64,000 bases of DNA, from the NCBI RefSeq assembly GCF_000688375.1, contig NZ_JIAF01000001.1:62001-126000 (forward strand), written 5' to 3'. The notes beneath the pieces were generated by a model that made no database searches, was not told the DNA's origin, and saw only the letters and a program-made list of their open reading frames with translations. Origin of the DNA: Prevotella sp. HUN102. GTDB taxonomy: Bacteria; Bacteroidota; Bacteroidia; Bacteroidales; Bacteroidaceae. This document shows, one piece after another, positions 21,854-50,769 of the stretch. Position numbers and translations under genes: made by a program. The first letter of the stretch is position 1; every line of letters begins with the position of its first letter.

Positions 21854-21854
21854 T

Positions 21855-22408: not shown

Positions 22409-22535
22409 TTTGTAAGTGCTTGAAGATCAGAATGTGTTTTAATGACTTTCAAACGTGCGAAGATTGCATTCCAATCTTCGCACGTTTGCATTCTATTTTT
22501 GCGAAGAATAGACTGCAATCTTCGCACGTTTGTAA
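22409..22535 (+). repeat. TTCGCA dispersed repeat, locus A
   Basis: The left flank TTTGTAAGTGCTTGAAGATCA is followed after 27 nt by AAACGTGCGAAGATTGCATT, its inverted partner CCAATCTTCGCACGTTTGCA, and another GCGAAG...CTTCGC pair. It folds as stacked hairpins. It lies alone in the gap between the HNH gene and relA; the rest of the 392-nt gap shows nothing else. Confidence 0.8.
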
Positions 22536-22732
22536 ACTGGGGTTGCGAAGGGAATGAGATTGGGGTGGGAGAGAAGGAAGGTTTTGTATGCTTGGGAGCG
22601 CAATCACGTCGGGATATTAAGTCGAGGGAGAGTGGGTATGGGGAGATATAGGGGCTTGTGCCATTGGGCAGAGGATGGAAAGTGCTGAAAAGAAAAACGT
22701 GTGAGCGAAATTAGGTTTCGCCCACACGTCTG

Positions 22733-24943
22733 TCAGATTCTCATTACTTGCTTTACGCCTCTGATGTTGGCAAGTTTCTTGATGAGGAGTTTCAGTTTTG
22801 AAGTATCGTCGATGAGGACGACGAGATTGCCCGAGAACAGGCCGTCGTGCGAATCTATGCTGATGGAGCGCATCGTAACCTTGTCTTCCTTTGCGATGAC
22901 GTTGGTAATGTTGCTCACGATTCCGATGTCGTCGTTGCCTATGATTCGCAGGGTAATGGTGTAAACGGAACCTCCCTTGCCGCTCCAGCAAGCCTTCACG
23001 ATACGATAGCCAAAGCGTTTGCGCAGTTCGGGTGCGTTGGGGCAGTTCGTCCGGTGAATCTTGATGCCGCCATTTACGGTTACGAATCCGAATACAGGGT
23101 CGCCATAGATGGGATGACAGCATTTGGAAAGCGAGAAATCTACGCCCTTGAGATTCTCGTCTATCACGAGTACGTCCTCATTTGCCTTGATGAATTGTTC
23201 TGTATTGGCATCGAATTCAAAGTTTTCCGCGCTTTCGGCTTCTTTCGGCAGATTTTGGCCGTGCTCTCTTTCGTATATCTTCTGATACTCCTCGATGACG
23301 TAGTTGGGGTCGAGTTTCTCTTCGGCTATCTGTCTGTAAAATTCAGATGCTTCCTTGTAGCCGAGTTTCTTGAGCAGATGCTGAAGGATGGAGTCGTCTA
23401 TTTCAATCTTCTTGTTCTTGAATCTTCTTTCGAGCAGTTCCTTTGCATAGAGTCCCTCCTTTGCCTGAGTTTCTTTCAGAGCCAGTCTTATTTTTGCTTT
23501 TGCACGCGAGGACTTCACTATCTTGAGCCATTCCCGCTTGGGCTTTTGAGTGCTTGAGGTAAGCACTTCCACGGTGTCGCCGCTGTGGAGTTCGCTCCTG
23601 AAGGATATGTTCTTGCCGTTTACTTTTCCGCCCACGCATTGGTTGCCCACCTTGGAGTGGATATGGTAGGCGAAATCGAGCAGGGTTGCACCTTTGGGAA
23701 ACTTCAGCAGGTCGCCCTTGGGCGTGAACACGTATATCTCCTTGTCGTAGAGGTCGAGCTTGAACTGGTCCATCACTTCGAGGTTGTCGCCGGCTTCGAG
23801 CGCAGTGCGTATGGATGCGAGCCAGCCGTCCATACCGCCGCCCGACTTCACGCCCTTGTATCGCCAGTGTGCGGCCAGTCCGTGCTCGGCAATCTCGTCC
23901 ATCCGCTCGGTTCTTATCTGCACTTCCACCCATTTGTGTTCTGCGCCCAGCACGGTGATGTGCAGACATTCGTAGCCGTTTGATTTCGGTACGGAAATCC
24001 AGTCGCGCAGTCGCTTCGGGTTGGGTTGGTACATATCCGTTACGATGGAATAAGCCTGCCAGCACTGCATCTTCTCTTTCTCTTCCGGAGAATCGAGGAT
24101 GATGCGGATGGCGAAGAGGTCGTAGATGCCCTCGAAGCTGCATTTCTGCTTCTTCATCTTCTGCCATATCGAGTGGATGGACTTTGTGCGGCCCTTGATG
24201 TGGAACTTCAGTCCGGCTTCCTTCAGATGTCTGCTCACAGGGTCTATGAATCCCTTGATGTAGGCATCGCGGGCAGCTTTCGTCTCGTTCAGCTTTTCCT
24301 TGATATGATAGTAGGCATCGTGCTCGAGATATTTCAGGGAGAGGTCCTCGAGTTCGCTCTTCAACTGGTAGAGACCGAGTTTGTGGGCCAACGGTGCATA
24401 GAGATAGCTCGCCTCTTCAGAGACTTCCCGCTGTGCCTCCTTGTTGGGAGTGTCCCTTATCTGTCGCATCAGGTTTACCCTGTCGGCTATCATTATCAGG
24501 ATTACTCTCATATCCTCGGCAAAGGATACGAGGAGATTGCGGAAGTTTTCGCTCTCAATGGTGGGGCTTTTCTGGTAAAGGCTCTTTATGCGGACGATTC
24601 CGTCGATAATCTTCGATACGCCTTCGCCATACTCTCTGCCTATCTCTTCGGATGTGGAATAGCCTCCCTGAACGCTGTCGTAGAGCAGGATGGCGATGAC
24701 GGAATCCCTCTTCAGGCCGATGTCCTTTGCGGCAATTATTGCAGTTTGGATGGCGCACAGCAGACTGTTCAAGCCGAAAATGTTTCGCTCGATGAGTCCG
24801 TTCTGTTCTGCAAGCGTGAAATGCTCCGTGAGTTTTTCCTCGTCTTGCGCCGATAAACTGTCTTCCAGATAAGTCTTCAGTTGTTGAAAAAGTGCTTTTG
24901 CCGTTTCTTTTTCTTCTTCAGTAAAAAACATTCTTGTTTCCAT
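22733..24943 (-). CDS. relA: RelA/SpoT-family (p)ppGpp synthetase, hydrolase site degenerate
   Basis: A 736-residue RSH protein from the ATG at 24943 (METRMFFTEEEKE). Order: HD-like domain (about 30-190), synthetase domain (FHIKGRTKSIHSIWQKM, SVPKSNGYECLHITV, VEVQIRTERMDEIAEHG), TGS domain (VFTPKGDLLKFPKGATLLDFA) and a C-terminal ACT domain (ITLRIIGNDDIGIVSNITNV). The HDxxED metal motif of the hydrolase is replaced by LLYDSVQGG and the earlier His is missing, so this should be a synthetase-only RelA type responding to starved ribosomes. A -7 box lies at 24965-24972. Confidence 0.93.
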   Translation of the reverse strand: METRMFFTEEEKETAKALFQQLKTYLEDSLSAQDEEKLTEHFTLAEQNGLIERNIFGLNSLLCAIQTAIIAAKDIGLKRDSVIAILLYDSVQGGYSTSEEIGREYGEGVSKIIDGIVRIKSLYQKSPTIESENFRNLLVSFAEDMRVILIMIADRVNLMRQIRDTPNKEAQREVSEEASYLYAPLAHKLGLYQLKSELEDLSLKYLEHDAYYHIKEKLNETKAARDAYIKGFIDPVSRHLKEAGLKFHIKGRTKSIHSIWQKMKKQKCSFEGIYDLFAIRIILDSPEEKEKMQCWQAYSIVTDMYQPNPKRLRDWISVPKSNGYECLHITVLGAEHKWVEVQIRTERMDEIAEHGLAAHWRYKGVKSGGGMDGWLASIRTALEAGDNLEVMDQFKLDLYDKEIYVFTPKGDLLKFPKGATLLDFAYHIHSKVGNQCVGGKVNGKNISFRSELHSGDTVEVLTSSTQKPKREWLKIVKSSRAKAKIRLALKETQAKEGLYAKELLERRFKNKKIEIDDSILQHLLKKLGYKEASEFYRQIAEEKLDPNYVIEEYQKIYEREHGQNLPKEAESAENFEFDANTEQFIKANEDVLVIDENLKGVDFSLSKCCHPIYGDPVFGFVTVNGGIKIHRTNCPNAPELRKRFGYRIVKACWSGKGGSVYTITLRIIGNDDIGIVSNITNVIAKEDKVTMRSISIDSHDGLFSGNLVVLIDDTSKLKLLIKKLANIRGVKQVMRI

Positions 24944-24964
24944 AACCGTCAATAATATGCGACA

Positions 24965-24972
24965 CAAAGGTA
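24965..24972 (-). promoter_or_regulatory. -7 box TACCTTTG for relA
   Basis: Minus-strand TACCTTTG lies 21 nt upstream of the ATG at 24943. It also argues against the upstream in-frame start at 24967, which lies inside it. Confidence 0.6.
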
Positions 24973-25014
24973 CAAAAAAAAGCCAAAACGCCTTGCCTTT
25001 TAAGAAAAAGTAAG

Positions 25015-25022
25015 TATATTTG
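25015..25022 (+). promoter_or_regulatory. -7 box TATATTTG for the DUF4301 gene
   Basis: TATATTTG with a TTG at 24993-24995 and a 19-nt spacer fits the Bacteroidetes promoter. It is divergent from the relA promoter. Confidence 0.6.
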
Positions 25023-25057
25023 TAAGAGACTAATCAATCATTTAAATTATCAATCAA

Positions 25058-26578
25058 ATGCTAATACAAGAGGATTTACAACAAATTGCCAAGAAGGGAA
25101 TCAGCATTGAAAACTTCAACAGACAGTTGGAGAGTTTCAGGCAGGGCTTTCCTTATCTGAAACTTCAGGGTGCTGCCACTCCCGAGAGTGGTATTCTCCA
25201 GTTGAACGGCGAAGAATGTCGGAAATATACCGACGCTTGGGAGCGATACAAGGAAGAAGGCAAACGAATCGTGAAGTTTGTCCCGGCATCAGGTGCTGCC
25301 AGTAGAATGTTCAAGGACTTGTTTGCTTTCTTGGATGCTGACTATACAAGTCCTTCAACGGAGTTCGAGAAATATTTCTTCTCTCATATAGACGGATTTG
25401 CTTTCAAGGGAGAACTCGATGAGGTCTGCATTGAAAACGAGGGAAAGAACGTTGCTGCCTTAATCAATGAGGGCAACTGCAAGGCTGTTGTGTCTAATCT
25501 CCTGAATGCAAAGGGTTTGAATTACGGACAGTTGCCGAAGGGATTGCTCACTTTCCACGATTATGACGGGGGGGCGCGTTCGTCGATGGAGGAGCATTTG
25601 GTGGAAGCGGCCTTGTATGCTGAAAGCAACGGAGAGGCAAACGTGCATTTCACGGTTTCCAATGAGCATCTGGATTTGTTTAAAAAGAAGGTGGCAGACA
25701 GGGTGGCTAAATATGAAGAGCTGTTCAATGTGAAATACAACATCAGTTTCTCTGAACAGAAATCCAGCACGGACACCATTGGAGGCAATTCCGACAATAC
25801 GCCTTTCAGAAATGAAGACGGCTCTCTGCTGTTCCGCCCCGGTGGGCACGGCGCATTGATTGAAAATCTGAATGATATCAACGCAGATGTGGTCTATATA
25901 AAGAATATTGACAACGTGGTTCCCGACCGTCTGAAGGAAGAGACCGTGAAGTGGAAGAAGATTATAGCAGGATTGCTGGTCGCACTTCAGACTAAGGCTT
26001 TCTCATACATCGAAAGGCTCGAGACAGAAACACTTTCTTTAGCAGAGCTGAAGACAATCCTTGCTTTCCTTGAGAACGATTTATACTGCAAGAACCCTGA
26101 TGCTGACGCTCTGGATGAAGAACAGTTGAAGGAATATCTTTTGAAAAAGCTGAATCGTCCGATGCGCGTTTGTGGTATGGTAAAGAATAGTGGCGAGCCC
26201 GGTGGCGGTCCTTTCTTTGCTTATAATGCAGACGGCACGGTCAGTCTGCAGATTCTCGAAAGTTCGCAAATCGACAAGGACAATCCTGAATACCTTTCAA
26301 TGTTCAAGAACGGCACGCATTTCAATCCTGTTGATTTGGTTTGTGCATTGAAAGATTATAAAGGTCGTTCCTTTAATCTGCCCGGTTTCGTAGACCCTGC
26401 AACAGGTTTCATCAGCAGCAAGTCGAAGAATGGCAAAGAACTCAAGGCTCTCGAGCTTCCCGGTTTATGGAATGGTGCAATGAGCGATTGGAATACTGTG
26501 TTCGTGGAAGTCCCAGCCATCACCTTCAATCCCGTAAAAACAGTCAATGATTTGCTGAAAAGCGAACATACAAAATAA
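25058..26578 (+). CDS. DUF4301 family protein
   Basis: A 506-residue cytosolic protein of the Bacteroidetes DUF4301 family. Visible blocks are FVPASGAASRMFKDL near residue 75, RPGGHGALIENLND near 265 and VYIKNIDNVVPD near 285. The pattern of a glycine-rich phosphate-binding loop followed by GGHGA and an acidic xxNIDN motif recalls sugar-nucleotidyltransferases such as UDP-sugar pyrophosphorylases, so a nucleotidyltransferase-like role is possible but unproven. No signal peptide or membrane segment was seen. It is a single-gene unit with its own promoter and terminator. Confidence 0.85.
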   Translation: MLIQEDLQQIAKKGISIENFNRQLESFRQGFPYLKLQGAATPESGILQLNGEECRKYTDAWERYKEEGKRIVKFVPASGAASRMFKDLFAFLDADYTSPSTEFEKYFFSHIDGFAFKGELDEVCIENEGKNVAALINEGNCKAVVSNLLNAKGLNYGQLPKGLLTFHDYDGGARSSMEEHLVEAALYAESNGEANVHFTVSNEHLDLFKKKVADRVAKYEELFNVKYNISFSEQKSSTDTIGGNSDNTPFRNEDGSLLFRPGGHGALIENLNDINADVVYIKNIDNVVPDRLKEETVKWKKIIAGLLVALQTKAFSYIERLETETLSLAELKTILAFLENDLYCKNPDADALDEEQLKEYLLKKLNRPMRVCGMVKNSGEPGGGPFFAYNADGTVSLQILESSQIDKDNPEYLSMFKNGTHFNPVDLVCALKDYKGRSFNLPGFVDPATGFISSKSKNGKELKALELPGLWNGAMSDWNTVFVEVPAITFNPVKTVNDLLKSEHTK

Positions 26579-26583
26579 ATCAT

Positions 26584-26626
26584 AACTCCCATTTGATTAT
26601 AAGCAATAATTAAATGGGAGTTTTTG
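26584..26626 (+). terminator. Terminator of the DUF4301 gene
   Basis: AACTCCCATTT (26584-26594) and AAATGGGAGTT (26612-26622) form a perfect 11-bp stem followed by TTTTT. Confidence 0.85.
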
Positions 26627-26644
26627 TGTCTGTATAAAAACAAA

Positions 26645-26670
26645 AAACCGTTGGAATAATCCAACGGTTT
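26645..26670 (-). terminator. Terminator of the DSAA-repeat lipoprotein gene
   Basis: AAACCGTTGGA and TCCAACGGTTT form a perfect 11-bp stem with a 4-nt loop and a T-rich minus-strand tail. It is placed back to back with the DUF4301 terminator. Confidence 0.85.
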
Positions 26671-26695
26671 GTTTCTTGTGAATCTACTTCATAGA

Positions 26696-26926
26696 TTACA
26701 TAGCAGCTGAATCAGCAGGAGCAGCAGCAGAGTCTACTGTTGCAGCAGCTGAATCTACAGGAGCAGCAGCTGAGTCGAGAGCAGCTGAATCAGTAGCAGC
26801 TGAATCCATAACTTCTGTTGCAGCTACGCTGTCAGAATCGTTAGCAGCACCGCTCTTAGCGTTGCCTGTACAAGATGCGAATGAGATAGCTGCCATAGCT
26901 ACGAACATAAATACCAATTTCTTCAT
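26696..26926 (-). CDS. Small Ala/Ser/Asp-repeat lipoprotein
   Basis: A 76-residue lipoprotein from the ATG at 26926. The signal peptide MKKLVFMFVAMAAISFASC ends in a lipobox with Cys19. The mature part is low complexity: a run of DSAA-type units (DSAATDSAALDSAAAPVDSA and so on) fills residues about 40-76. Such short surface lipoproteins are often abundant in Bacteroidetes, but their role is unknown. It has its own promoter box at 26977-26984 and terminator. Confidence 0.8.
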   Translation of the reverse strand: MKKLVFMFVAMAAISFASCTGNAKSGAANDSDSVAATEVMDSAATDSAALDSAAAPVDSAAATVDSAAAPADSAAM

Positions 26927-26976
26927 TTTTCTTTGCTTTTTAAATCTGTAAAACAATCACGTTTATTAAAACGATG

Positions 26977-26984
26977 CAAAGGTA
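26977..26984 (-). promoter_or_regulatory. -7 box TACCTTTG for the small lipoprotein
   Basis: Minus-strand TACCTTTG is 50 nt upstream of the ATG at 26926. Confidence 0.55.
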
Positions 26985-27478
26985 AGTATTTTTTTTATAC
27001 GGCAAACATTTTTTATTCTTTTTTTTTATCTGTTTTTGTAACATTTTTGTATTATTCTGAAAATCAACTGTTTATAACTTGAATATCGGTGTTAAAAAAT
27101 GCAAACGAATTGAATCTATGCTTGAAGACATCATTAAATGTGTGTAAAATAGATGAAGAATATCATAACTGAAGAGGCGTTCTTTATATATAAATAAGGT
27201 GGATAAGATGATTTTTTAGGATTTCTGTCTGAAAAGATTCTGTGTTTATAGGCTTAGGGACAAAAAGTAATCTGCACAATCTGCGTGATTTGTGGGAGGT
27301 TTTGATTCTTACTGATACGTAGATAGTGCTGCTATTTATGAATTCTGTTTGAAAGTGTATGGCTGTTATTAGTCCTCGTTATTGTTTTTCTCTGAATAAA
27401 AGAAGGTGCCTCAGGCTTGATGCTTGTCTTGAGAAAAGTTCATTTGTGGGTGGTTGATTTAAGACTGTTCTGAAGGCA

Positions 27479-27605
27479 CTTTGCAAGTAACCGATAAATG
27501 CAAAACATTCTTCGCAAGATTGCAAGGCGTTTTTGCGAAGATTGCAGCGCATTCTTCGCAAAAATGAAAATAAGGATTTTGATAGCTGATTCTCAGATAT
27601 TTACG
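27479..27605 (-). repeat. TTCGCA dispersed repeat, locus B
   Basis: Read on the minus strand it has a flank with CTGAGAATCA, then TTTTTGCGAAGAATGCGCTG, CAATCTTCGCAAAAACG and CAATCTTGCGAAG modules, and a right end GCATTTATCGGTTACTTGC that is shared with loci D and E. Confidence 0.8.
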
Positions 27606-27832
27606 GATTGATGAATATTTGTCTTGTTGTAGATTGACTATCAAAGGATGGGTAAAGCAAGTTTAATGAAGATTGTGTGAGGAATATGAACGGAAATGGA
27701 ATGCTACAAACATTGAAAGGGCTGAATAGAATAGGTTGAGCAATAAGCAGGGATTGCAGCAGTAAGGTGGAAGATTACAAGAGAGACTTCTCTTTCAGGA
27801 ATTTCCGAATAAAAATGGGTGGGGATATAATG

Positions 27833-27920
27833 AAAAAAGCGATGGCCTTCACAGGCAATCGCTTTCAAATCTTCAATAGGTATTAGTCTTTTAAGGTAAA
27901 AAGATTGTTTTCAGGATAAC
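27833..27920 (-). ncRNA. Predicted small RNA of about 88 nt
   Basis: On the minus strand an ideal promoter (TTTG at 27957-27954, 20-nt spacer, TATCTTTG at 27933-27926) is followed about 55 nt past the expected start by a strong intrinsic terminator: 13-bp stem with one mismatch (27836-27848 and 27853-27865), loop TCAC, then TTTTTT. No start codon with a plausible frame lies between them. The transcript would begin near 27920 and end near 27833. No known RNA family was recognised, so its target and role are open. Confidence 0.6.
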
Positions 27921-27925
27921 GATTG

Positions 27926-27957
27926 CAAAGATAAGTGGTTTTTTGATTACTGCCAAA
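27926..27957 (-). promoter_or_regulatory. Promoter of the predicted small RNA
   Basis: The best-matching Bacteroidetes promoter in the window: -33 TTTG and -7 TATCTTTG with 20 nt between them, in a region with no protein-coding gene downstream. Confidence 0.65.
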
Positions 27958-28385
27958 CATTTTTGCAAGTTTTTTTCCTTTGTTTTGTGCGTGTGCGAAC
28001 ACACAAAAATAAATAGCAGGACTTGATAAAATATTATTCGCCGTAAGCTCAGGTTATGTTGTTATTGAGAGTTTGGAGAAAGGGGCGTTCGTTTGAGTTT
28101 TTCCAGCAATATGTAATAAGGTGTATCGAATTACGGAGGATAAACAGAGTGTCTCTTAATAATAATATGCGCAGAATATGGATTTTATGACAAAATGAAA
28201 ACTTCTCATTTCAATGAGTGGTTAGGGTTATACAAGCTGGAAACACATAGTAAGGAAAGAGAATGATAGAAAAACAAACACGGACTTGATGTGCGAAAAA
28301 TGAAGCCGTCGGATAGGAACGCCTTCAGTTGTTGTAAATTATTTTCTCATTGGTCAGGAGTTTGGTCAATGAGCGAGAAATGAAA

Positions 28386-28428
28386 AACGAAGAATACTCA
28401 CATTCTGCAAGGTGAGCATTCTCCGTTT
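28386..28428 (-). terminator. Terminator downstream of manC
   Basis: Imperfect stem (AACGaAGAATaCTCAC paired with GTGAGcATTCTcCGTT) with a loop of about 10 nt and a TTTTTC tail on the minus strand, 27 nt after the manC stop. Confidence 0.7.
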
Positions 28429-28454
28429 ATCGTCGGGTTTGGTTCTTCTCGCAA

Positions 28455-29522
28455 TTATCCTTCGCCGGAAAACTGCTTGATGCGCTGTTCGTCTGCGAGT
28501 TTGCAAATCAGCAGAGTGCCGTCCTTTTCGGCCACGATATAGCCGTCCAGTCCCTGAACCACTACTTTTCTCTCGTCGGCCGTATGCACTATGCAGTTCT
28601 TGCTGTCGAACAACTGCACGTTGCTGCCGATTACGGCATTTCCGTAAAGGTCGTGCTGCAACTGCACGTGTAGCGAGCCCCAAGTGCCGAGGTCGCTCCA
28701 TCCGAAGTCGGAAGGACATACAAAAATCTCTTCTGCTTTCTCCATAATGGCATAGTCCACGGATATTCCCTCGCATTCGGGATACACCTTGTCGATTGCA
28801 GCCTGCTCTTCGGAAGTGCCCAACACGTCCATTACGCCTTCAAAGATGCGGGCAATACCCGGCTGATAGATGCGGAATGCGTTCACGATTGTTGAAACGT
28901 TCCAGATGAATATGCCGGCATTCCAGAAGAAATTGTTCTGACTGATGTACCTCTTTGCTGTTTCCAGATCGGGCTTTTCGCGGAACTGGTCTACTCTGAA
29001 CATTTCCTTGTTGCGCACCGACGGCACAGAGAGGTCTGCCTGTATGTAGCCGTAGCCTGTTTCCGGGCGGGTGGGCTTCATACCGAGCGTAAGGATGGCG
29101 TCGGTCTCGGAGGTAAACTTCAGACTGTTCGCGATTACGCGCCGAAATTCAGCTTCGTTGGTTACTATATGGTCGCTGGGCGTAACCACGATATTTGCCT
29201 TTGGGTCGTTTTTCTTGATGCGCCAGCTCACGTATGCAATGCAGGGAGCCGTGTTTCTGCGGCAAGGTTCGCTCAGGATGTTCTCGCGTGGAATTTCGGG
29301 TAGTTGTTCGTGAACCAAATCCACGTACTTCTTGTTTGTAACTACCCAAACGCTCTCAGGCTTGGTAATGCCCTTGAATCTGTCGTAGGTCAGTTGCATC
29401 AGCGAGCGTCCCACTCCCAGCACGTCGATGAACTGTTTTGGTTTTTCAGCTGTACTCATAGGCCAGAATCTGCTTCCGATTCCTCCGGCCATAATTACAA
29501 GATGGTTATTAGCGTGTAACAT
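28455..29522 (-). CDS. manC: Mannose-1-phosphate guanylyltransferase
   Basis: A 355-residue nucleotidyltransferase making GDP-mannose from mannose-1-phosphate and GTP for surface glycans. The N-terminal signature is VIMAGGIGSRFWPMS, followed by EKPKQFIDVLG. The phosphosugar-binding part contains FWNAGIFIWNVS and ICPSDFGWSDLGTWGSL-like residues (VCPSDFGWSDLGTW here). Length fits single-domain GMPs; the C-terminal isomerase domain of bifunctional AlgA-type enzymes is absent. A -7 box lies at 29557-29564. Confidence 0.94.
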   Translation of the reverse strand: MLHANNHLVIMAGGIGSRFWPMSTAEKPKQFIDVLGVGRSLMQLTYDRFKGITKPESVWVVTNKKYVDLVHEQLPEIPRENILSEPCRRNTAPCIAYVSWRIKKNDPKANIVVTPSDHIVTNEAEFRRVIANSLKFTSETDAILTLGMKPTRPETGYGYIQADLSVPSVRNKEMFRVDQFREKPDLETAKRYISQNNFFWNAGIFIWNVSTIVNAFRIYQPGIARIFEGVMDVLGTSEEQAAIDKVYPECEGISVDYAIMEKAEEIFVCPSDFGWSDLGTWGSLHVQLQHDLYGNAVIGSNVQLFDSKNCIVHTADERKVVVQGLDGYIVAEKDGTLLICKLADEQRIKQFSGEG

Positions 29523-29556
29523 ATTATTCTAAACTGGTTTTATTATACTTTACGTG

Positions 29557-29564
29557 CAAATATA
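29557..29564 (-). promoter_or_regulatory. -7 box TATATTTG for manC
   Basis: Minus-strand TATATTTG is 35 nt upstream of the manC start. Confidence 0.55.
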
Positions 29565-29577
29565 CGAATAAAAAACA

Positions 29578-29604
29578 AGAAAGGCAACAAATCGCTGCCT
29601 TTCT
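29578..29604 (-). terminator. Terminator of the porin gene
   Basis: AGAAAGGCA and TGCCTTTCT form a perfect 9-bp stem with a 9-nt loop and the tail CTTGTTTTTTATT on the minus strand, 25 nt after the porin stop. Confidence 0.8.
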
Positions 29605-29628
29605 CCTATTATTTATGATGTTTTACTC

Positions 29629-33049: not shown

Positions 33050-33203
33050 TTACAAAACCACCTTCATAATTCGATTATTTCAGAAAAAGATTCATTTGTT
33101 TTTAAATACGCGAATTATGAGTGTGCAATTATAGTGTTCTCTGCATCAGTAATTTACTTTCAAAAAGCGCATATCTGTGTAGAGAATTTCCTCTTAAAAG
33201 TTC
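33050..33203 (-). repeat. Diverged dispersed repeat, copy 2
   Basis: The reverse complement aligns colinearly with 11054-11209, with nearly the same length (154 against 156 nt) and several conserved blocks. Confidence 0.55.
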
Positions 33204-33260
33204 TCATATAGAACAATAAACTCGAATAATCGACCTAATTTCAGGAACCATTCAATGCTC

Positions 33261-33350
33261 TTTCGGTTTCCATTCTTGCGATAACTGCACAGCGTTTGTC
33301 GCAAGAATGAACAACAATCTTCGCACAACCAGAATCCATTGCAGCGAAAA
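33261..33350. repeat. TTCGCA dispersed repeat, locus C (degenerate)
   Basis: CATTCTTGCGATAACTGCAC, GTCGCAAGAATG, CAATCTTCGCAC and ATTGCAGCGAAAATC retain the words of the family in alternating orientation but with more mismatches and no conserved left flank. Confidence 0.6.
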
Positions 33351-33482
33351 TCTCTTTTCAAGTGTCGAAAGAGCAGCAGAAAATCTCTATTTTGCGAAAA
33401 AAATATGTGCGTTTTTTGGTAATCATATTTTACAGAACTGAGTTGAAAGAGGGGGCTTTTCTTCCTGTCAGCTTGGCATCCA

Positions 33483-37814: not shown

Positions 37815-38434
37815 TTTCTTTATTTGTTTGATTAAATTTCCTAATTGTTTTTTTAGGCGTAAACAAGCGCATAGCAATGCCATTTTTGCTCATTTACCCT
37901 ATGTTGTGTGCAAAGTTACTCAAAAAATCTGTATTGGCAAACTGAAATTCCTGCTTACTTGCAATCTGTGTTCTGGATAAATATCCCGAGTGTGAAATCA
38001 GTTGATGCGAGAATAAAGGAATAAGTTTACAAGAAACGTAGTTGAAAAGGGCAAAGTTTCAAATAAATTTGTATGTAGTTCTGCCATTTAGGCAAAGTTA
38101 TTCAATGGTACGAAATGTGTGTTTGTAACTAATTGAAAATCAGTTTGTAATATATTCGTTTCCAAACGTGCGAAGATTGCGCTGCATTCTTCGCACGTTT
38201 GCGTTGCAATCTTCGCAAGATTACATTGCATTTTTCGGTTACTTGAAAATCGTGTTTCCGTCAGTCGTCAGCGATAGTAGTTTTGCCGAATCGGAATGAC
38301 ACAATATCCTTAAAGAGAGCAAGCTGAATCAGGAATTGAATCAGGGCTTGTTCTCTCACAGGGATAGGTTAAGAGCTTTATATTTTCCGATTTACAACAC
38401 CTCTTATATAGGAGCGTGAAAGGGAACTTTGGGC
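37815..38434. other. Gap between maoC-like and YgiN-like genes
   Basis: Contains the maoC-like leader and -7 box (37911-37918, TAACTTTG on the minus strand) and TTCGCA locus D (38122-38251). The remaining 180 nt before the YgiN-like stop show no supported feature. Confidence 0.55.
38122..38251 (+). repeat. TTCGCA dispersed repeat, locus D (most complete)
   Basis: The left flank TTTGTAACTAATTGAAAATC (38122-38141) is followed by three hairpin modules (AAACGTGCGAAGATTGCGCT, GCATTCTTCGCACGTTTGCG, CAATCTTCGCAAG) and the right end GCATTTTTCGGTTACTTGAA. Both ends are conserved, so this copy defines the element at about 130 bp. Confidence 0.85.
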
Positions 38435-43571: not shown

Positions 43572-43703
43572 GTCTGATTTGCAAGTGACCGAAGAACGGA
43601 ATGCAATCTTCGCAAAAACGCATTGTATTCTTGCGAAGATTGCATTGCATTCTTGCGAAGATTGTAGTCCTATGTTTTAAGCGTTGATTTTCAATTGATT
43701 ATG
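43572..43703 (-). repeat. TTCGCA dispersed repeat, locus E
   Basis: On the minus strand it reads ATTGAAAATCAACG as left flank, then CAATCTTCGCAAGAATGCAA modules, TTTTTGCGAAGATTGCATTC and the right end TTCTTCGGTCACTTGCAAAT. Both ends match locus D. The rest of the 382-nt ridA-fdtB gap holds only the ridA promoter. Confidence 0.82.
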
Positions 43704-43727
43704 AAATTTGCTTTGTCTGTATGTTTT

Positions 43728-44819
43728 TTAAAAGGCATTCAGCAGTCTGACGATTCTCTGCGCATCTTCATCCGTCATTGCCTGATTGCACGGCAGGGAG
43801 AGTTCCTGTCGATGAATGCGCTCGGTAATGGGGAAAGAAAGGTGGTTCCATTCCTTGTAGGCCTGTTGCTGATGGGGAGGAATGGGGTAGTGAATCATTG
43901 TCTGCACGTCGTTCTCCTTTAGATAGGCTTGCAGCGTGGCGCGTTCTTCGCAGAGAATGGGGTAGATATGATAAACGTTGTCTCGGTCGGGCGATTTCGG
44001 AACAATAGTCTTCGGGTTTGAAATCTGTGTGTTGAAAATCTGTGCAATCTGCTTTCTGCGTGCATTGTCGGCATCAAGATAGCGTAGTTTCACGGAGAGT
44101 GCGGCAGCTTGAAGCTCGTCCATACGGCTGTTTCTGCCTTTGTAGGCGAACTCGTATTTACGGGACGAACCGTAATTGGCGAGTGTTCGGATGGTGTTGG
44201 CAAGCAGTTCGTCGGATGTGGTTACGGCACCTGCATCGCCCAATGCGCCGAGATTCTTGCCGGGATAGAAACTGTGAGCTGCTGCATCGCCAAGGCTTCC
44301 CGTCCGTTTGCTGTGGAAGGTGCAGCCGTGAGCCTGTGCATTGTCTTCTATCAGCTTGAGATGGTGCTGTCTGCAAATGTTTTCTATTCGTGTAGTGAAG
44401 GCGCATCTGCCGTAGAGATGTACGAGGAGAATGGCTCGGGTGCGTGGAGTTATTGCCGACTCGATGCGTGCGTCGTCTATCTGCATCGTACTGATGTCTG
44501 GCTCAACAAGCACGGGAACAAGATTGTTTTCTGTGATGGAGAGGATGCTTGCGATATAAGTGTTGGCAGGTACGATTACTTCGTCGCCGTCCTGAAGGAC
44601 GCCCAGATCCCGATAGGCACGGAAAATGAGGCTGAGTGCATCGAGTCCGTTGCCGCAAGTGATGCAATGGTGAGTGCCGATATAGCGTGCATACTGGTCT
44701 TGGAATTGGCGTGTGGCCTGTCCTTGCAGATACCAACCGGAATCCACAACCTGCTGAATTGCCGCAGAAATCTCTTCGGCGTGCATCGCAGTGATTTGTT
44801 TCAGTGATAGATATTCCAT
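43728..44819 (-). CDS. DegT/DnrJ/EryC1 sugar aminotransferase (FdtB-like)
   Basis: A 363-residue PLP enzyme from the ATG at 44819 ([17 protein letters not shown]). Motifs: [42 protein letters not shown] and [18 protein letters not shown] with the PLP Lys, then [14 protein letters not shown] and VYHIYPI. It is the FdtB/QdtB type that aminates dTDP-3-oxo-6-deoxyhexose at C3. It starts 2 nt after the FemAB-like acyltransferase stop and is the last gene of the rfbB cluster. Confidence 0.9.
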
Positions 44820-44821
44820 TG

Positions 44822-45769
44822 TTAAAAGTCCGATATTTCCCACGTGTCGTAGCAGATGCCTCTTCCTCCGAAGCCTTCTTTCTGAAAAATGAGCTGCTCG
44901 TTGAGGTCGTGGCCGTCGCCGTCGGAGCTTTTTCCAAAGTCGAAATAGCCGGTATGGGATGCGTACACCTTATTTAATATATGGTCGAAAAGCAGGTCGA
45001 GCGCACCGTTTGCCTTTCCTTCGGGCGAGGCTGAAATGTATTGTGTGTGAATGGTTCGGGGAGTTTCGTAGACAATCGTGCCTCCTATTGGCAGTTTTTC
45101 GCTGCTTTGGGCAATGAAAAGCCTTATTTCTTTTGGAAAATTGGCTTTGAGCAATGTGAGTTCGTCGAGTGAATGAACCGGAGCGGCATCGTATTTATTG
45201 TGCAGATTGTCGTTGAGGATATGCCAGAAAGCAGCAAGGTCGTTGCTTTCTTCCACAATGATTCCGTTGCGCATCGCCTTTCTGATGCCGCTTTTTCGGC
45301 TTTCGGCGAATTTCATACGGTTTTCCAACGCAATGGTGGATGAGATATGGCGTGTGATGATGCGTGCATTGCAGACGTTTACCAGTGCGTAGAGGTCTTC
45401 CTCGGCAGGAATCCTGTGGTAAATGTGGGGAACAGCCTTATACACGAAACGATGAATGCCGTGTTCGGAAAGGAAGGAAAGAATGAGCCTTAAGACTTCG
45501 CAAACGTCTGAAGTCGTGGCTTTTGCGTTGGTTATCAGTCCACCATAGGTAAGTCCTTGGTGGGAATAGAGCGTATTGCCGGCGAGATTGGCAGGCAGTA
45601 GCGCGAAGATGCGTTGCTTGCGGCGGACAATGAGTGAGAAATCATCGAAACGGTCGGAATGATAGTCCATATAATGCCGGTCGAACAAGAATGTGCCTTG
45701 CTTCGACTGCTTCACGAATGCGTTCCATTCATTCGCCTGCTGTGGACTGTATTTCGTGATTTCAAACAT
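44822..45769 (-). CDS. FemAB-like GNAT acyltransferase of the amino-sugar cluster
   Basis: A 315-residue protein with the GNAT_6/FemAB-like pattern: an N-terminal half with QGLTYGGLI and [18 protein letters not shown], and a C-terminal half with [19 protein letters not shown] and [21 protein letters not shown]-like residues ([12 protein letters not shown] here). It lies between the FdtA-like and FdtB-like genes, 3 nt and 2 nt from them. It could N-acylate the 3-amino sugar in place of the usual left-handed helix acetyltransferase FdtC, or modify lipids or other glycans; substrate not shown. Confidence 0.8.
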
Positions 45770-45772
45770 CGG

Positions 45773-46189
45773 TTATTTCTCTTCGATAAACTTTAAATAC
45801 TCATCGTATTCCCTGATATAGTCATCTTCATCGAACAGGTCTTCGGCCAATACGAGGCAGACTGCACCCGATGAGAAGTCGTCGAGCGTCCGCCAGATGT
45901 TCGTATCTACCAATAATCCCTGATAGGGATGGTTCAGAAGGAAGGTATGCTGCTGTTTCCCGTTGGTAAGGGTAACTGTGAAAGAACCACTGACGGCGAT
46001 GATAAACTCACGACAATGCTTGTGGGAGTGTCCTCCTCGGCATTCTCCGCCGGGCACATCGTAGACCCAATAGACGCGGGAGACATTGAAAGGAATGTCT
46101 TTCGATTGTTCAACGAAAGTGAGATTGCCCCGTTGGTCGAGAATCTTGGGGAGGTCGATGATTTTTCCGATGCTTGGTTCGTCTTGCAT
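45773..46189 (-). CDS. dTDP-4-oxo-6-deoxyglucose 3,4-ketoisomerase (FdtA/QdtA type)
   Basis: A 138-residue WxcM-like cupin. Features are LPKILDQRGNLTFVEQSKDI, VYDVPGGECRGGHSHKHCRE with the conserved His residues, LLNHPYQGLLVDTNIWRTLD and VLAEDLFDEDDYIREYDEY. It moves the keto group from C4 to C3 of dTDP-4-oxo-6-deoxyglucose before transamination. FdtA gives the galacto and QdtA the gluco product, which cannot be separated by eye. It is the second gene of the cluster. Confidence 0.9.
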   Translation of the reverse strand: MQDEPSIGKIIDLPKILDQRGNLTFVEQSKDIPFNVSRVYWVYDVPGGECRGGHSHKHCREFIIAVSGSFTVTLTNGKQQHTFLLNHPYQGLLVDTNIWRTLDDFSSGAVCLVLAEDLFDEDDYIREYDEYLKFIEEK

Positions 46190-46309
46190 TGTTTGAAAAA
46201 TAAGGGGTGTTGGAAGGGAATTGGGAGTGAAGGTTCTGCTTTGTGATGTTCCGTGAATGGGGCGTTTGATGGACTTGAAGGGAATTCAATGAACTTGAAA
46301 GGTCTTAAT

Positions 46310-46381
46310 CGTGAAGAAGTGCTGATAATAATAGGTGCTCGCTGCTTTTGTTTTTCAGGCAATTATCATCGCTTCTTCACG
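46310..46381. other. Long imperfect inverted repeat between rfbB and fdtA-like gene
   Basis: CGTGAAGAAGTGCTGATAAT (46310-46329) and ATTATCATCGCTTCTTCACG (46362-46381) pair with few mismatches around a 32-nt loop. It lies in the 227-nt gap between rfbB and the FdtA-like gene and could attenuate or separate their transcription. No T-run follows on either strand. Confidence 0.5.
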
Positions 46382-46416
46382 CTAAGTGCTTTCTTATGGA
46401 TTCACTCCTTCGGTTT

Positions 46417-47565
46417 CTATCTGTTGGAATACATCATATCGTAATACTTCTGATAGTCACCGCTGGTAACTTCCTGTATCCATTCCTGATTTTCGAGGTT
46501 CCACTTGATGGTCTTCACGATGCCTTCGGCAAACATTGTTTCAGGGAACCAACCGAGTTCTTCCTTGATTTTGGTTGGATCGATGGCATAGCGGGCGTCG
46601 TGTCCCAGTCTGTCGGCAACGTGTGTAATGAGATCGTTGTTTATCCAACTGATGTCTATGTCGCCGTTTTCGTCCTTTACCTGTTTTTTCAACACCTTAC
46701 GGAGTTCCTTGTTTTCGGCCAGCATATCGTGGATGGTCTTGATTGTGAGCTTCACAATGTCGATATTGGTCATCTCGTTGTGTCCGCCTACATTGTAAAC
46801 TTCGCCTACACGTCCTTCACGAACCACCATATCAATGGCCTTGCAGTGGTCTTCCACGTAGAGCCAGTCGCGAACATTCAGTCCTTCTCCGTAGACCGGG
46901 AGTGCTTTTCCTTCGAGAATGTTGTTGATTATCAGTGGAATGAGCTTCTCGGGGAAGTGATAAGGGCCGTAGTTGTTGGAACAACGGGTGATGCTGATAG
47001 GCATGTGGAACGTGTCGTGATATGCCATTACGAACATATCGGCACTTGTCTTGCTTGCCGAATACGGACTGTGAGGGCAGAGTGGGGTGGCTTCCGTGAA
47101 GTAACCGTCGGCTCCGAGCGAGCCATATACCTCATCGGTGGATACCTGATGATAGCGTTTGCCCTCCTTCCAAGTGGGGTATCCCTTCTCGTCCTTGCCT
47201 GTAACCCACGCACGGCGTGCGGCATCCATCAGGTTTTGAGTGCCCAGTATGTTCACGTTGAGGAACAGTTGAGGGTCTTCTATCGAACGGTCTACGTGGC
47301 TTTCAGCAGCGAAGTTCACGAGATAGTCGATGTCGTATTCGGTAAAAAGCCTGTCTGCGAGTTCCCTGTCTCGTATATCGCCCTTGACAAATATGCAGCG
47401 TTCGCCGTCTATATCGTCCTTGATGGTTCCGAGATTACCTGCATAGGTTAGTGCATCAAGAACAATTACCTTGATGTCTTCGTTCACATACTTCTTGTGA
47501 AGCAGATACTTGATGTAGTTTGCGCCTATAAAGCCGGCGGCTCCAGTTACTAAGTAAGTTTTCAT
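46417..47565 (-). CDS. rfbB: dTDP-glucose 4,6-dehydratase
   Basis: A 382-residue extended SDR enzyme making dTDP-4-oxo-6-deoxyglucose, the shared precursor of rhamnose and 3-amino-3,6-dideoxy sugars. It has the NAD-binding GAAGFIGANYIKYLL, the NFAAESHVDRS motif, the catalytic YSASKTSADM (Tyr-x-x-x-Lys), and the RfbB-specific STDEVYGSLG with Asp-Glu. It is slightly longer than usual, with an insertion of about 20 residues (DAARRAWVTGKDEKGYPTW) that is common in Bacteroidetes. It starts 30 nt after the small membrane-protein gene. Confidence 0.96.
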   Translation of the reverse strand: MKTYLVTGAAGFIGANYIKYLLHKKYVNEDIKVIVLDALTYAGNLGTIKDDIDGERCIFVKGDIRDRELADRLFTEYDIDYLVNFAAESHVDRSIEDPQLFLNVNILGTQNLMDAARRAWVTGKDEKGYPTWKEGKRYHQVSTDEVYGSLGADGYFTEATPLCPHSPYSASKTSADMFVMAYHDTFHMPISITRCSNNYGPYHFPEKLIPLIINNILEGKALPVYGEGLNVRDWLYVEDHCKAIDMVVREGRVGEVYNVGGHNEMTNIDIVKLTIKTIHDMLAENKELRKVLKKQVKDENGDIDISWINNDLITHVADRLGHDARYAIDPTKIKEELGWFPETMFAEGIVKTIKWNLENQEWIQEVTSGDYQKYYDMMYSNR

Positions 47566-47595
47566 TTTGTTGTCTATTATATTTTTATCTGTTTC

Positions 47596-47853
47596 TTAAT
47601 TTATTTCCGTATTGAATTCATCAGCAGCTTTGGCGTGTTTGCCCCTATGCCATCGGTTCTTATAGGCTGTTTTTATCTTTCTCCAACAGTCAGGAAAAGT
47701 GTAGACGGTAGCCATTGCTGCACCGAAGCCAGTGCTGTTGAAAGCGATTTCCTTCCAGTCATACTCATTGTTCCATTCAAATATTATAGTGATGATGAAA
47801 TATGCAATGCTATACACAAGAAACTGGCTGCTGAATTTTCTTATGGTTTTCAT
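47596..47853 (-). CDS. Small hypothetical two-TM membrane protein
   Basis: An 85-residue protein from the ATG at 47853 (MKTIRKFSSQFLVYSIAYFI). Two hydrophobic segments (about 8-27 and 40-58) are followed by a basic C-terminus. The frame is open to an ATG at 47922 that would overlap the phosphoesterase stop; the shorter start is preferred because the extension is unlike a membrane-protein N-terminus, but it is not excluded. No known family was recognised. Confidence 0.6.
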   Translation of the reverse strand: MKTIRKFSSQFLVYSIAYFIITIIFEWNNEYDWKEIAFNSTGFGAAMATVYTFPDCWRKIKTAYKNRWHRGKHAKAADEFNTEIN

Positions 47854-47902
47854 TCGGTTGCAGATTTTTGTAATGCCATTAGGGGGCGTTTGCCTTGTTA
47901 TT

Positions 47903-48409
47903 TCAGTTTTTTGCCTTATCATTTAAAGTAATAACTTCACAATCACTGAATTTATTGCCTTCGATGGTAAGTCTTATCAGCGTGCGCTCCTTGTGCCACC
48001 CGCTCAATCCGGCAGCACCGGGGTTGATATGGAGCAGATTGAGCGTCTTGTCGAACTTCACTTTCAGTATGTGGGAATGCCCATCGACGAACAGATCAGG
48101 TGGAGAAGCGTAGAGCATACCCTGCACCGATCGGTCGTAATTGCCGGGATAGCCGCCGATATGCTTCAGGAGAACATCAACGTCTTCGCACTTGAAACGC
48201 AGAATTTCACGGTAGCGTGCCCTTATCTCGCAGCCGTCTATGTTGCCATACACGGCACGGAAGATAGGTTTCATTGCCTCGAACCTGTCGGCGACTTCCA
48301 AAGAACCGATGTCGCCGGCGTGCCATACTTCATCGCAGTCCTTGAAATAGTATTCGTATTTCTCATCCCAGTAAGCGTGAGTGTCCGATATGATTCCGAT
48401 GCGTTTCAT
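47903..48409 (-). CDS. YfcE/MJ0936-type metallophosphoesterase
   Basis: A 168-residue phosphodiesterase with the full metal-binding set: GIISDTHAYW (Asp-x-His), VWHAGDIGSLE, VYGNIDGC (Asn-x-Asp), HIGGYPG, VDGHSHI (Gly-His-x-His) and NPGAAGLSG. The E. coli YfcE group hydrolyses phosphodiester bonds; natural substrates are uncertain. It overlaps the cytidylate kinase-like gene by an ATGA junction. Confidence 0.92.
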   Translation of the reverse strand: MKRIGIISDTHAYWDEKYEYYFKDCDEVWHAGDIGSLEVADRFEAMKPIFRAVYGNIDGCEIRARYREILRFKCEDVDVLLKHIGGYPGNYDRSVQGMLYASPPDLFVDGHSHILKVKFDKTLNLLHINPGAAGLSGWHKERTLIRLTIEGNKFSDCEVITLNDKAKN

Positions 48410-49035
48410 TTGGCTGCCTTCAACTTGCGTTTTATGAACTCTGCTATAAAATCCTTCGTTGCCTCGAGCCCGAGAATGCTTGCATCAACGCAGAGGTCGT
48501 AGCTTTCGGAGTGTCCCCAAGTCTTGCCCGTATAGTAATTATAATACTTAGCCCGTTCGCTTTCGCCGTTTTCTATGATTTTGCGTGCTTCCTCCACCGT
48601 GCACCCCCTGCGTTTGCTCACGTTTTCGGCTCTGAAGTCCATATTTGCCGTGATGAAGATGTTCACAACTGCCTTATTATCGCGCAAAACATAGTCTGCC
48701 GTTCTGCCTACGAACACACAGCGGGGATTCTTTTCAGCGGCATCGCGAATGGCATCGCTCTGAAACTGATAGAGACTTTCCTGCGAAAAGTCGTTTTTAT
48801 AGAAGTCGTTGCTTCCCAACAGAGGCAGATGGATGTGGAAATGAGACTTCAGGAATCCCTTCTGCTCGTCATTCTCCTCGAAGAACTTCTCTGAAAAGCC
48901 ACTCTCCCGGGCTGCAATGTTCAGTATTTCTCTGTCGTAGAACTTGCAGTTGAACTCTTCGGCAAGCATCTTGGCAATGATTCTTCCACCACTTCCGAGC
49001 TGTCGGCCAACGTTTATAATCAGTTTTTCTTCCAT
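48406..49035 (-). CDS. Cytidylate kinase-like protein
   Basis: A 209-residue P-loop kinase of the Cytidylate_kin2 family. It starts with INVGRQLGSGGRIIAKMLAE, where the glycine-rich loop differs from canonical Cmk. It continues with CKFYDREILNIAA, RCVFVGRTADYVL and KRRGCTVEEARKIIENGE, then YDLCVDAS. Members are widespread in anaerobes, but the substrate is mostly unproven. It overlaps the phosphoesterase by 4 nt and lies 21 nt after the MATE pump stop. Confidence 0.88.
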   Translation of the reverse strand: MEEKLIINVGRQLGSGGRIIAKMLAEEFNCKFYDREILNIAARESGFSEKFFEENDEQKGFLKSHFHIHLPLLGSNDFYKNDFSQESLYQFQSDAIRDAAEKNPRCVFVGRTADYVLRDNKAVVNIFITANMDFRAENVSKRRGCTVEEARKIIENGESERAKYYNYYTGKTWGHSESYDLCVDASILGLEATKDFIAEFIKRKLKAAK

Positions 49036-49056
49036 AAGCGTGAATATTTTACAGGT

Positions 49057-50412
49057 TCAGGCCTGCATTTCTTTCTTGAAATTTCTCATATAACTAAACA
49101 TTATCGTACCGGCAATGACAGCCGAAAGGGCATCGCTCGACGGCAATGCCGCCCATACGCCGTCGATATTGAAGAATCGGGGCAATACAATCAGCAGCGG
49201 CAACAGCAGCAAGAGCTGTCTGGAGAGCGAAAGGAAGATGCTTATCTTCACTTTTCCGATACATTGGAAAAAATTGGTTATTACCATCTGTCCTCCGATA
49301 ATCGGAAACATCATCATATTGATGTGAATCGCCTTTACCGACTGCGTGATCAGTTCGCTGTCGGTGGTAAACATTCGGGCACAATAGTAGGGTGCGAACA
49401 TCGCAAGGAGCCATCCGGTCGTCATTATCGCCGTAGCCGAGACAACGGCAAGTTTCACAACCCGCATCATTCTGTCGAACTGCTGCGAACCGAAGTTGTA
49501 TCCCGCTATCGGCTGCATTCCCTGATTCAGTCCGATTACGAACATCACGAAGATAGTGGCAATACTGTTTGCGATGCCATAAGCCCCGACAGCCATATCT
49601 CCGCCATATTTCACGAGCTGATTGTTCATAAAAATCACAATCACGCACGCACAGGCATTCATCAGGAAAGGCGAAATGCCAATCGAAACAATATTCTTCA
49701 CGAGGTCTTTCTTCAGTTTGTAGATGCCGCGCTTCAGATGGAGCAGCTCCTTCTGATTGGAAAAGAGCTTCATCTGCCAGCAGAGTGCCAGTATCTGCGA
49801 GATAATCGTTGCCAACGCAGCCCCCTTGATGCCCCAGCCCCACCACAGGATGAAGACAACATCGAGAAGAATGTTCATCGCCACCGTGAAGATGGTTGCA
49901 AACATAGCGTGCCTCGGCTTGGATGCGGCGCGAAGCACGGCATTCATTCCGAAGTACATATGCGAGAAAACATTGCCTGCGAGGATAACGGTCATAAAGT
50001 CCTTGGCATACGGAATCGTGGCATCGCTTGCACCGAAGAACCTAAGAATGGAGTCGAGGAAAATAAGACAGAGTGCTCCGAAGACGATGCCGATGATGAG
50101 ATTCAGCGTTATCGTGTTGCCGAGTATGTTTTCTGCCGTATCGTAATCCCTCTGACCGAGCTTCACGCTGATGGTGGTTGATGCCCCTACGCCCACGGCT
50201 GCACCGAAAGCAGCCGCAAGATTCATAAACGGAAAAGTGATTGCCAGACCCGAAATAGCCATAGAGCCGACCACCTGACCGATGAACACGCGGTCGATGA
50301 TATTGTAGAGCGACGCTGCCGTCATCGCTATGATGGCAGGCAGGGCATACTGCGCCAATAGTTTCCCTACGGGCTTAGTCCCTAACTCTAACGTTGCTTT
50401 CTTATTATCCAT
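49057..50412 (-). CDS. MATE family efflux transporter
   Basis: A 451-residue membrane protein with about 12 transmembrane helices in two related halves. Family blocks are PVGKLLAQYALPAIIAMTA, YNIIDRVFIGQVVG, VGVGASTTISVKLGQRDY and GLNQGMQPIAGYNFG. It exports drugs or metabolites by a cation antiport. The substrate is unknown. It has a -7 box (TACTTTTG, 50436-50443) and is the first gene of the unit that continues to the kinase-like and phosphoesterase genes. Confidence 0.93.
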   Translation of the reverse strand: MDNKKATLELGTKPVGKLLAQYALPAIIAMTAASLYNIIDRVFIGQVVGSMAISGLAITFPFMNLAAAFGAAVGVGASTTISVKLGQRDYDTAENILGNTITLNLIIGIVFGALCLIFLDSILRFFGASDATIPYAKDFMTVILAGNVFSHMYFGMNAVLRAASKPRHAMFATIFTVAMNILLDVVFILWWGWGIKGAALATIISQILALCWQMKLFSNQKELLHLKRGIYKLKKDLVKNIVSIGISPFLMNACACVIVIFMNNQLVKYGGDMAVGAYGIANSIATIFVMFVIGLNQGMQPIAGYNFGSQQFDRMMRVVKLAVVSATAIMTTGWLLAMFAPYYCARMFTTDSELITQSVKAIHINMMMFPIIGGQMVITNFFQCIGKVKISIFLSLSRQLLLLLPLLIVLPRFFNIDGVWAALPSSDALSAVIAGTIMFSYMRNFKKEMQA

Positions 50413-50435
50413 TGAGTCTTACTTATATACATTTG

Positions 50436-50443
50436 CAAAAGTA
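50436..50443 (-). promoter_or_regulatory. -7 box TACTTTTG for the MATE gene
   Basis: Minus-strand TACTTTTG is 24 nt upstream of the MATE start codon. Confidence 0.55.
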
Positions 50444-50641
50444 CAAAAAAAATGTGATACACTCATTGGATAAATTAAATTTATAAGACACGGATGATGA
50501 GAAACCACCCCTGTTCAGCCTCGAACGCCTGCCGTATGCCCACACAGGCAGAATCATATCCTTGCATCCCTGTTCGCTTCCTGTCTTTATTCCCTGCGTT
50601 GGGGCTTATCCTGAATCGGGTAACGACGCTATTGTCATCTG

Positions 50642-50769
50642 TTTGTAAGTATTTGAAAATCAATGTGTATTACGCCTGTTTTCATTTGTGCGAAGAATGC
50701 ACGCCAATCTTCGCACAAACGCGCTGCAATCTTCGCAAGAATGCAGCGCAATCTTCGCACGTTTGAAAA
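50642..50769 (+). repeat. TTCGCA dispersed repeat, locus F
   Basis: The left flank TTTGTAAGTATTTGAAAATC is followed after about 33 nt by TGTGCGAAGAATGCACGC, CAATCTTCGCACAAACGCG, CTGCAATCTTCGCAAGAATG and CAGCGCAATCTTCGCACG. It lies in the divergent MATE/subtilase gap; the rest of that gap holds only the two promoters. Confidence 0.85.

Follow-up and report, generated by a model that had tools for sequence, protein, structure and literature searches.

A dispersed family of palindromic intergenic elements with a 22-nt register in Prevotella sp. HUN102

Bacterial interspersed mosaic elements (BIMEs) consist of imperfect palindromes in alternating orientation, drawn from a small vocabulary of unit types. 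Iteron arrays and the end sites of MuA and TnsB have another anatomy, with binding sites of about 22 bp that are phased by two helix turns and lie as direct repeats in a single origin or at the ends of a transposon. Repetitive extragenic palindromes (REPs) have been defined by a tetranucleotide, GTAG or CGTC, at the base of the palindrome, and REPs of the CGTC type are reported in Bacteroidetes (PMC3733652). The nearest described element is BrickBuilt, a miniature inverted-repeat transposable element (MITE) of Porphyromonas gingivalis with 19 copies in ATCC 33277, direct repeats of 23 nt that have no spacers between them (one copy holds 18 full repeats) and ends, AAGACCTTTGCA and CCGAAAGGTCTC, like those of IS5-family elements (PMC4596501). 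Here we describe a family of short elements that sits between the genes of Prevotella sp. HUN102, an oral-type Prevotella. The analysis began with a stretch of 64,000 nt (positions 62,001 to 126,000 of contig NZ_JIAF01000001.1, assembly GCF_000688375.1), called the window, within which coordinates count from the first letter.

The Prevotella element resembles BrickBuilt in its occurrence in Bacteroidales, its intergenic location, its plan of a leader, a short-period array and a tail, and its small inverted ends. It differs in having a 22-nt register, palindromes that point both ways, four units in most copies and other ends, and in the presence of at least 94 + 33 right ends in one genome compared with the 19 BrickBuilt copies. 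With the REPs and BIMEs of enterobacteria and pseudomonads it shares many intergenic palindromes, alternating orientation and a small unit vocabulary, but its units are 17 nt long, follow a 22-nt register and are accompanied by a conserved end motif. The GTAG or CGTC tag does not occur in the consensus of the main class of copies, and no RAYT (Y1 transposase, PF01797) was found in three genomes, HUN102 and the two species G131 and G145, where the control was positive in 5 of 14. Like MITEs in general, the elements are short, non-coding and dispersed, with partly inverted ends; unlike them, the copies read show no target duplication, parent element or near-identical copies. The sites differ from those of iterons, MuA and TnsB in being palindromic and spread over the chromosome. 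Because the RAYT and the tag of REPs and BIMEs were not found, and because the period, unit arrangement and ends of BrickBuilt differ, the element is best read as a dispersed palindromic intergenic element that is BIME-like, and is not filed as REP, MITE or BrickBuilt. No description of such a family in Prevotella or Bacteroidaceae was found in the open-licence PubMed Central literature.

Anatomy and abundance in the HUN102 genome

The original prediction, made from the window, proposed six intergenic loci sharing a repeat word. All six are present and exceed chance: TGCAATCTTCGC is found 24 times in the window with up to two mismatches, against a shuffle mean of 8.12 (sd 2.95, largest 16; 100 shuffles). 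The family is larger than first described and is dispersed across the whole genome of 3,318,148 bases in four contigs. With up to one mismatch the core word GCAATCTTCGCA occurs 532 times, 284 and 248 in the two orientations, as had been claimed of the copies in the window, while the reversed pattern occurs six times (1 + 5). The class-1 right end is found 94 times (up to two mismatches) and that of a second class 33 times (up to three mismatches), with no control match for either. In 464 kb of HUN102 sequence, made up of the window and 20 further stretches picked partly for holding the core word, there are 55 clusters with at least two words, about one per 8 kb; 39 belong to class 1, six to class 2 and ten to neither.

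A class-1 copy is about 128 bp long and runs from a left end through four 17-nt quasi-palindromes at a 22-nt register and about 20 nt of further sequence to the right end TGATTTTCANNNACTTACAAA. When 61 rows are anchored on the right end, with position 0 at the first base of TGATTTTCANNNACTTACAAA, the site centres fall at -29, -51, -73 and -95, in steps of 22 bp or about two DNA turns, and the right boundary is sharp, with information at background beyond +20. A site core lies near the fourth position at all of the 46 right ends, out of the 94, that fall in the fetched HUN102 sequence. The left end has TTT at -107 and, beyond it, a weakly marked extension (AAACACGA) of the TTTGYAAGT type, and many copies have an imperfect 9-bp terminal inverted repeat TTTGYAAGT at both ends, the left one being variable. 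These ends account for the flanks that the original prediction had seen to be shared, its left flank TTGAAAATCA and right flank TTCGGTTACTTGC being the reverse complements of the right end TGATTTTCAA and the left end GCAAGTAACCGAA, respectively; the claim of defined ends is correct for the right end, while the left end is fuzzy. The copies also align well beyond the core word, with 57 of them (58 listed, L047 omitted) modelled over 143 positions.

Statistics on the units were taken from 51 of the 61 rows. The ten dropped are six with a one-base-shorter gap before the right end, L175 with its unusual arrangement, one with a mutated core and two read from the wrong end. The sites are oriented - + - + in 33 of the 51. 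Inner modules had been said to vary in number and pairing: word and orientation do vary at each position, but class-1 copies mostly have four unit positions, from which L175 and L047 (one clear site only) depart. Among 197 units, one arm of the site is nearly constant (CATTCTT 88, CAATCTT 81) and the other is taken from a limited set of words (ACGTTTG 58, AAAAACG 26, AAGAATG 25, AAAAATG 15, AAGATTG 13, and with a CGG centre TTACTTG 11 and TCATTTG 7). There is no complementary covariation between the two arms of a site in the 51 rows from this genome (z -2.5 to -0.8). Pairwise identity over the 61 rows averages 0.607 and reaches 0.845 at most, with a mean of 0.44 in the spacers and 0.79 in the right end.

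Class-2 elements are longer, use the same words and end in GTGCGTTTTTTGGTAATNNNNTTTTACA. In the 30 copies examined the sites and the right part are in register. By eye, the left end is approximately AATAAATCNGAC, at two places about 22 nt apart, and at least six copies seem to be one unit longer than the others. A model of the class-2 right end matches in 21 of 398 genus genomes, HUN102 included. Conservation of this class in other genomes is weakly supported, because a lag-22 array accompanies only 4 of the 28 matching loci outside HUN102 (any other lag, at most 2).

The 22-nt register in other Bacteroidaceae

The register recurs in relatives with other letters. It was sought by a lag scan that has no knowledge of the words and records self-similarity of at least 31/44 at lags of 10 to 40. 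In the 464 kb of HUN102 sequence lag 22 gives 28 clusters and the next best lag 10 clusters. Across 1.46 Mb from 80 Prevotellaceae relA/spoT loci it gives 33 clusters, which occur in 23 of the 80 loci and include a few simple repeats; other lags reach at most 9. Four further species (400 kb) yield 23 clusters, and 4 at the next best lag; by species there are 11 in G350, 4 in G347 (one being a GT run), 6 in G194 and 2 in G016, with 0-2 at other lags. In another 400 kb, from G145 and G131, there are 30 clusters and 3 at the next lag. Outside Prevotella, 12 Bacteroidaceae stretches chosen without the right-end motif (215 kb) contain three lag-22 clusters in two genomes (other lags at most 1), and ten stretches chosen by the motif contain eight (other lags at most 2). 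No lag-22 cluster was found in 360 kb drawn from Bacteroidia families other than this one (18 stretches, 18 genomes).

The units differ between species, being AGATATCT... in P. pallens, TATACAGACGTGTATA in P. veroralis, TTCCCAACGGCTGGGAA in P. multiformis and GTACTATCGTGTTG in Hoylesella enoeca. Other letters are followed by the same or a similar end in CAAAAGTGGCACTTTTG (L201), CAAAAGCATAGCTTTTG (L212, exact end) and CAATTTCAGTGAAATTG (L200), and L194 likewise places other letters on the frame. G145 and G131 use a third vocabulary, GCACNNNNNGTGC plus 9 nt, which flips in register. Much of the Bacteroidaceae shares the frame, and the site letters differ from species to species. The TTCGCA word by which the family had been defined is real in HUN102, but it is one species' lettering of this frame; searching other Prevotella for copies, as the original prediction advised, brings up arrays whose period is the same and whose palindrome letters are different, in some cases with an identical right end equally far away.

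The right end ties the register to the element in several species. A class-1 model built from sequence only, R1, matches in 57 of 398 genus genomes, HUN102 included (E 0.01 or better), and a lag-22 array is present at 20 of 29 matching loci outside HUN102 (other lags at most 2), a count that is biased because R1 itself contains the register. The right-end motif alone is the fairer test. With up to one mismatch it occurs in 67 of 398 family genomes, HUN102 included, with one control match, at one to five copies per other genome versus 59 in HUN102. Loci fetched by the motif alone have a lag-22 array nearby in 5 of 30 cases and none at other lags. Around 35 motifs outside HUN102, a lag-22 array lies within 150 nt upstream in eight and downstream in three, the seven control lags giving none, and four of the eight upstream arrays have their dyad centre at the HUN102 distance of 29 nt.

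Two further repeats were seen in these comparisons. Downstream of relA in P. micans (L091 4121-4382) there is a 44-nt repeat of two unlike 22-nt halves, one of which holds a perfect CCAACTAGTTGG palindrome, and in another Prevotella (G172:C26:87837-87931) a perfect 22-nt direct repeat CTTCGCAACAATACCGTATCTT is found on three contigs. The idea that the site downstream of relA is occupied in different species by arrays of different letters was considered and set aside: 22 is the best lag in 10 of the 80 regions (L112 reads N), of which five look like arrays by eye (L078, L083, L091, L092 and L136), and chance occupancy could explain this number.

Placement, stability and mobility

The loci in the window are listed in Table 1. 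They had been taken for one family. Loci A, B, D, E and F are indeed class-1 copies, but locus C belongs to the second class with its other right end, and a weak class-2-like locus had been missed.

Table 1. Elements located in the window
Feature	Position	Strand	Remarks
Locus A, class 1	22409..22536	-	Right end 22409-22429, 1 mismatch to right-end motif; unit cores at 22-nt register
Locus B, class 1	27480..27607	+	Right end 27587-27607, 4 mismatches; left end TTTGCAAGTAACCG; aligned with other class-1 copies
Locus C, class 2	33177..33436	+	Right end 33407-33434, exact class-2 match; compared with 29 other copies; left limit approximate
Locus D, class 1	38122..38249	-	Right end 38122-38142, 1 mismatch
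Locus E, class 1	43578..43705	+	Right end 43685-43705, 4 mismatches; left end TTTGCAAGTGACCG
Locus F, class 1	50642..50769	-	Right end 50642-50662, exact; four units
Additional weak class-2-like element	10823..11080	-	Right end 10823-10850, 4 mismatches; two unit words 22 nt apart; left limit approximate

The statement that no copy lies within a gene is largely correct. Open reading frames (ORFs) of at least 150 aa make up 77% of the 464 kb, and 38 of the 39 class-1 copies lie outside them; the remaining one overlaps by 107 nt, which matches exactly the overlap between locus F and ORF 50663-52234. The Pfam match of this ORF spans residues 243-513, and its true start is probably further in than the naive call. 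With naive ORFs of at least 90 aa the overlap exceeds half the element for 6 of the 39 class-1 copies and for 13 of the 55 word clusters. The 29 class-1 copies that could be placed between neighbouring genes lie in convergent (9), tandem (14) and divergent (6) regions, where the background of intergenic bases is 25%, 52% and 24%, respectively; between tandem genes six point with their neighbours and eight against. There is no bias for gene orientation or for gene 3' ends among these 29. Adjoining locus A, at 20386-22340, are a gene for a D12-class adenine methyltransferase and, downstream, one for an HNH endonuclease, possibly a restriction-modification pair.

Arrays keep their places in related genomes. 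Fetched segments of G145 and G131 are mostly 94-96% identical (one 90.8%) and 9 of 10 pairs are syntenic, the two arrays of the non-syntenic pair being left out of the count. Here 15 of 16 arrays occupy the same place in both genomes, one not being resolved, and one of the 15 shared arrays differs by two units (44 nt). A 44-nt difference is also found at one array between P. veroralis and P. vespertina (97%). Inspection by eye of P. denticola and P. multiformis (81%) places TTCCC..GGGAA units of both in one intergenic gap; P. denticola has a weak lag score there (21/33 versus 19 for control lags). From this sharing of position and the 44-nt differences it follows that arrays persist in place, changing by whole units and by words.

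The original prediction saw a REP- or MITE-like mobile element and proposed checks for its mobility. The dispersal, the two orientations and the inverted-repeat core stand, as do the ends with the reservation given above, but present-day movement is not supported. In 51 copies no target-site duplication was found among 2250 combinations of boundary and length (best z 3.7); none of the 61 rows is nearly identical to another; and the advised search for a RAYT-like transposase was negative, as stated. As to empty sites, the one candidate, in P. pallens versus P. aurantiaca, was dropped because divergence of the DNA between the genes is too great for a clean site to be recognised. No parent element with matching ends was found, the search covering Y1 transposases and tyrosine recombinases and 46 of the 94 right ends. 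The number of copies, their two orientations and the existence of two classes of end make it likely that the elements were dispersed by transposition in the past; most are now inherited where they stand.

Several observations touch on movement in other ways. In Hoylesella enoeca (L105), two distant arrays at 3345 and 8107 look like near copies of one another turned in opposite directions, and in each of them two unlike unit families are joined within a single 22-nt register; nothing else observed comes as near to a recent duplication. Between P. veroralis and P. vespertina (L081 and L082, both 8159-18068) the outer flank is swapped and inverted, and L081 has phased arrays beside both breakpoints. 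Simple recombination between arrays was rejected as the cause, since the arrays there differ in letters. Phage and plasmid records searched with locus D gave no match, and the double unit word occurs in no viral contig. The exact right end is present in 16 viral contigs, a number near chance for that collection by our own estimate; only the AT-rich L430 reaches a lag-22 score of the kind used above, and two have sequence on one side only. A phage link was set aside. In six of the 16 loci (L419, L421, L423, L424, L425 and L431) the motif lies within about 1 kb of the end of the fetched sequence. In one viral contig (L418, 5079-5099) the exact motif is flanked by a tRNA-like sequence on one side and a gene for a tyrosine integrase on the other, and L431 has the same stretch. 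The integrase link prompted by L418 was discarded after 30 integrase places in HUN102 were compared by eye with the 94 right ends, the nearest pair being about 1.5 kb apart.

A possible docking array and its alternatives

We favour, with confidence evenly balanced for and against, a reading of the element as a DNA-level docking array for a candidate DNA-binding protein, dispersed long ago and since then mostly inherited in place. Dimers of one or a few related proteins, or paralogues, would occupy the sites; at a spacing of two turns the bound proteins would lie on one face of the helix and could act cooperatively, and the right-end motif may be recognised by one of these proteins or by a partner. 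The retention of a 22-bp register while the letters change is most simply explained by a constraint of helical phasing, and phasing, taken with variable spacers and an intergenic placement that ignores orientation, suggests that a putative dimeric protein or a few paralogues bind cooperatively. Several features weigh against this account. In the 51 rows, sites 2 and 3 have facing arms that avoid complementarity (z = -7.0), sites 3 and 4 have outer arms that are somewhat complementary (z = 3.9), and a docking array predicts neither pattern. The discrete arm words would also result from copying in blocks. Only the right end is sharply bounded, the left end not being the same between species; at 25 of the 30 loci fetched by the motif alone nothing passes the threshold for an array; the G194 array is, by eye, on the opposite side of the motif; and in G350 the halves of the units are matched, the 39 units comprising TGCCA 14, TTCAA 14, GGGAA 8 and other 3.

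The element might instead be a non-autonomous MITE that is still moved by a transposase or recombinase reading both ends, with the phased palindromes as part of the transpososome. The sites of about 22 bp used by MuA and TnsB offer a parallel, and the many dispersed copies in both orientations, the defined right end, the imperfect 9-bp terminal repeat, the two end classes with one vocabulary and the near copies in Hoylesella enoeca all suit such an element. We regard it as possible but somewhat unlikely, given the missing target-site duplication, the modest identity of even the closest copies, the co-location of arrays in G145 and G131 and the want of a clean empty site at the one candidate. 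A transcribed RNA element, whose hairpin units would terminate transcription or protect mRNA ends, seems highly improbable. The inverted pairs are able to fold and nine of the placed copies do lie between convergent genes, but divergent regions are occupied too, and the unbiased neighbour and strand counts argue against a terminator, promoter or mRNA-end role; nor are there compensatory changes within units in this genome, and at gathering score the window matches no Rfam family. No more credible is a minisatellite formed by replication slippage, its period of 22 nt being accidental. Differences of two units between close relatives and the class-2 copies that seem to vary by one unit are what slippage would leave, but the period is common to unrelated unit sequences in many species, neighbouring units are unlike and flipped in register, and class-1 copies are mostly of one length.

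If the docking-array reading is extended to the family, the arrays would form a set of nucleoprotein sites spread over the chromosomes of Bacteroidaceae. Their frame of 22-bp register, end motif and site number would be kept, and their palindrome letters would be replaced in concert at many loci, in place, in each lineage. This would amount to a co-evolving code of protein and DNA, with strong selection, short-tract conversion or templated rewriting holding the many copies in step, and each species' protein and site vocabulary would have diverged together. We consider this extension rather doubtful. The interest of the family lies in a period that is kept while the sequence changes: since the sequence differs between species and the 22-bp ruler and often the end motif stay, similarity searches miss the relationship. 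How many dispersed sites can change together thereby becomes a testable question. In a group that is prominent among oral and gut bacteria, the elements point to a candidate protein that binds or mobilises DNA, and they offer anchors for species typing and for finding that protein.

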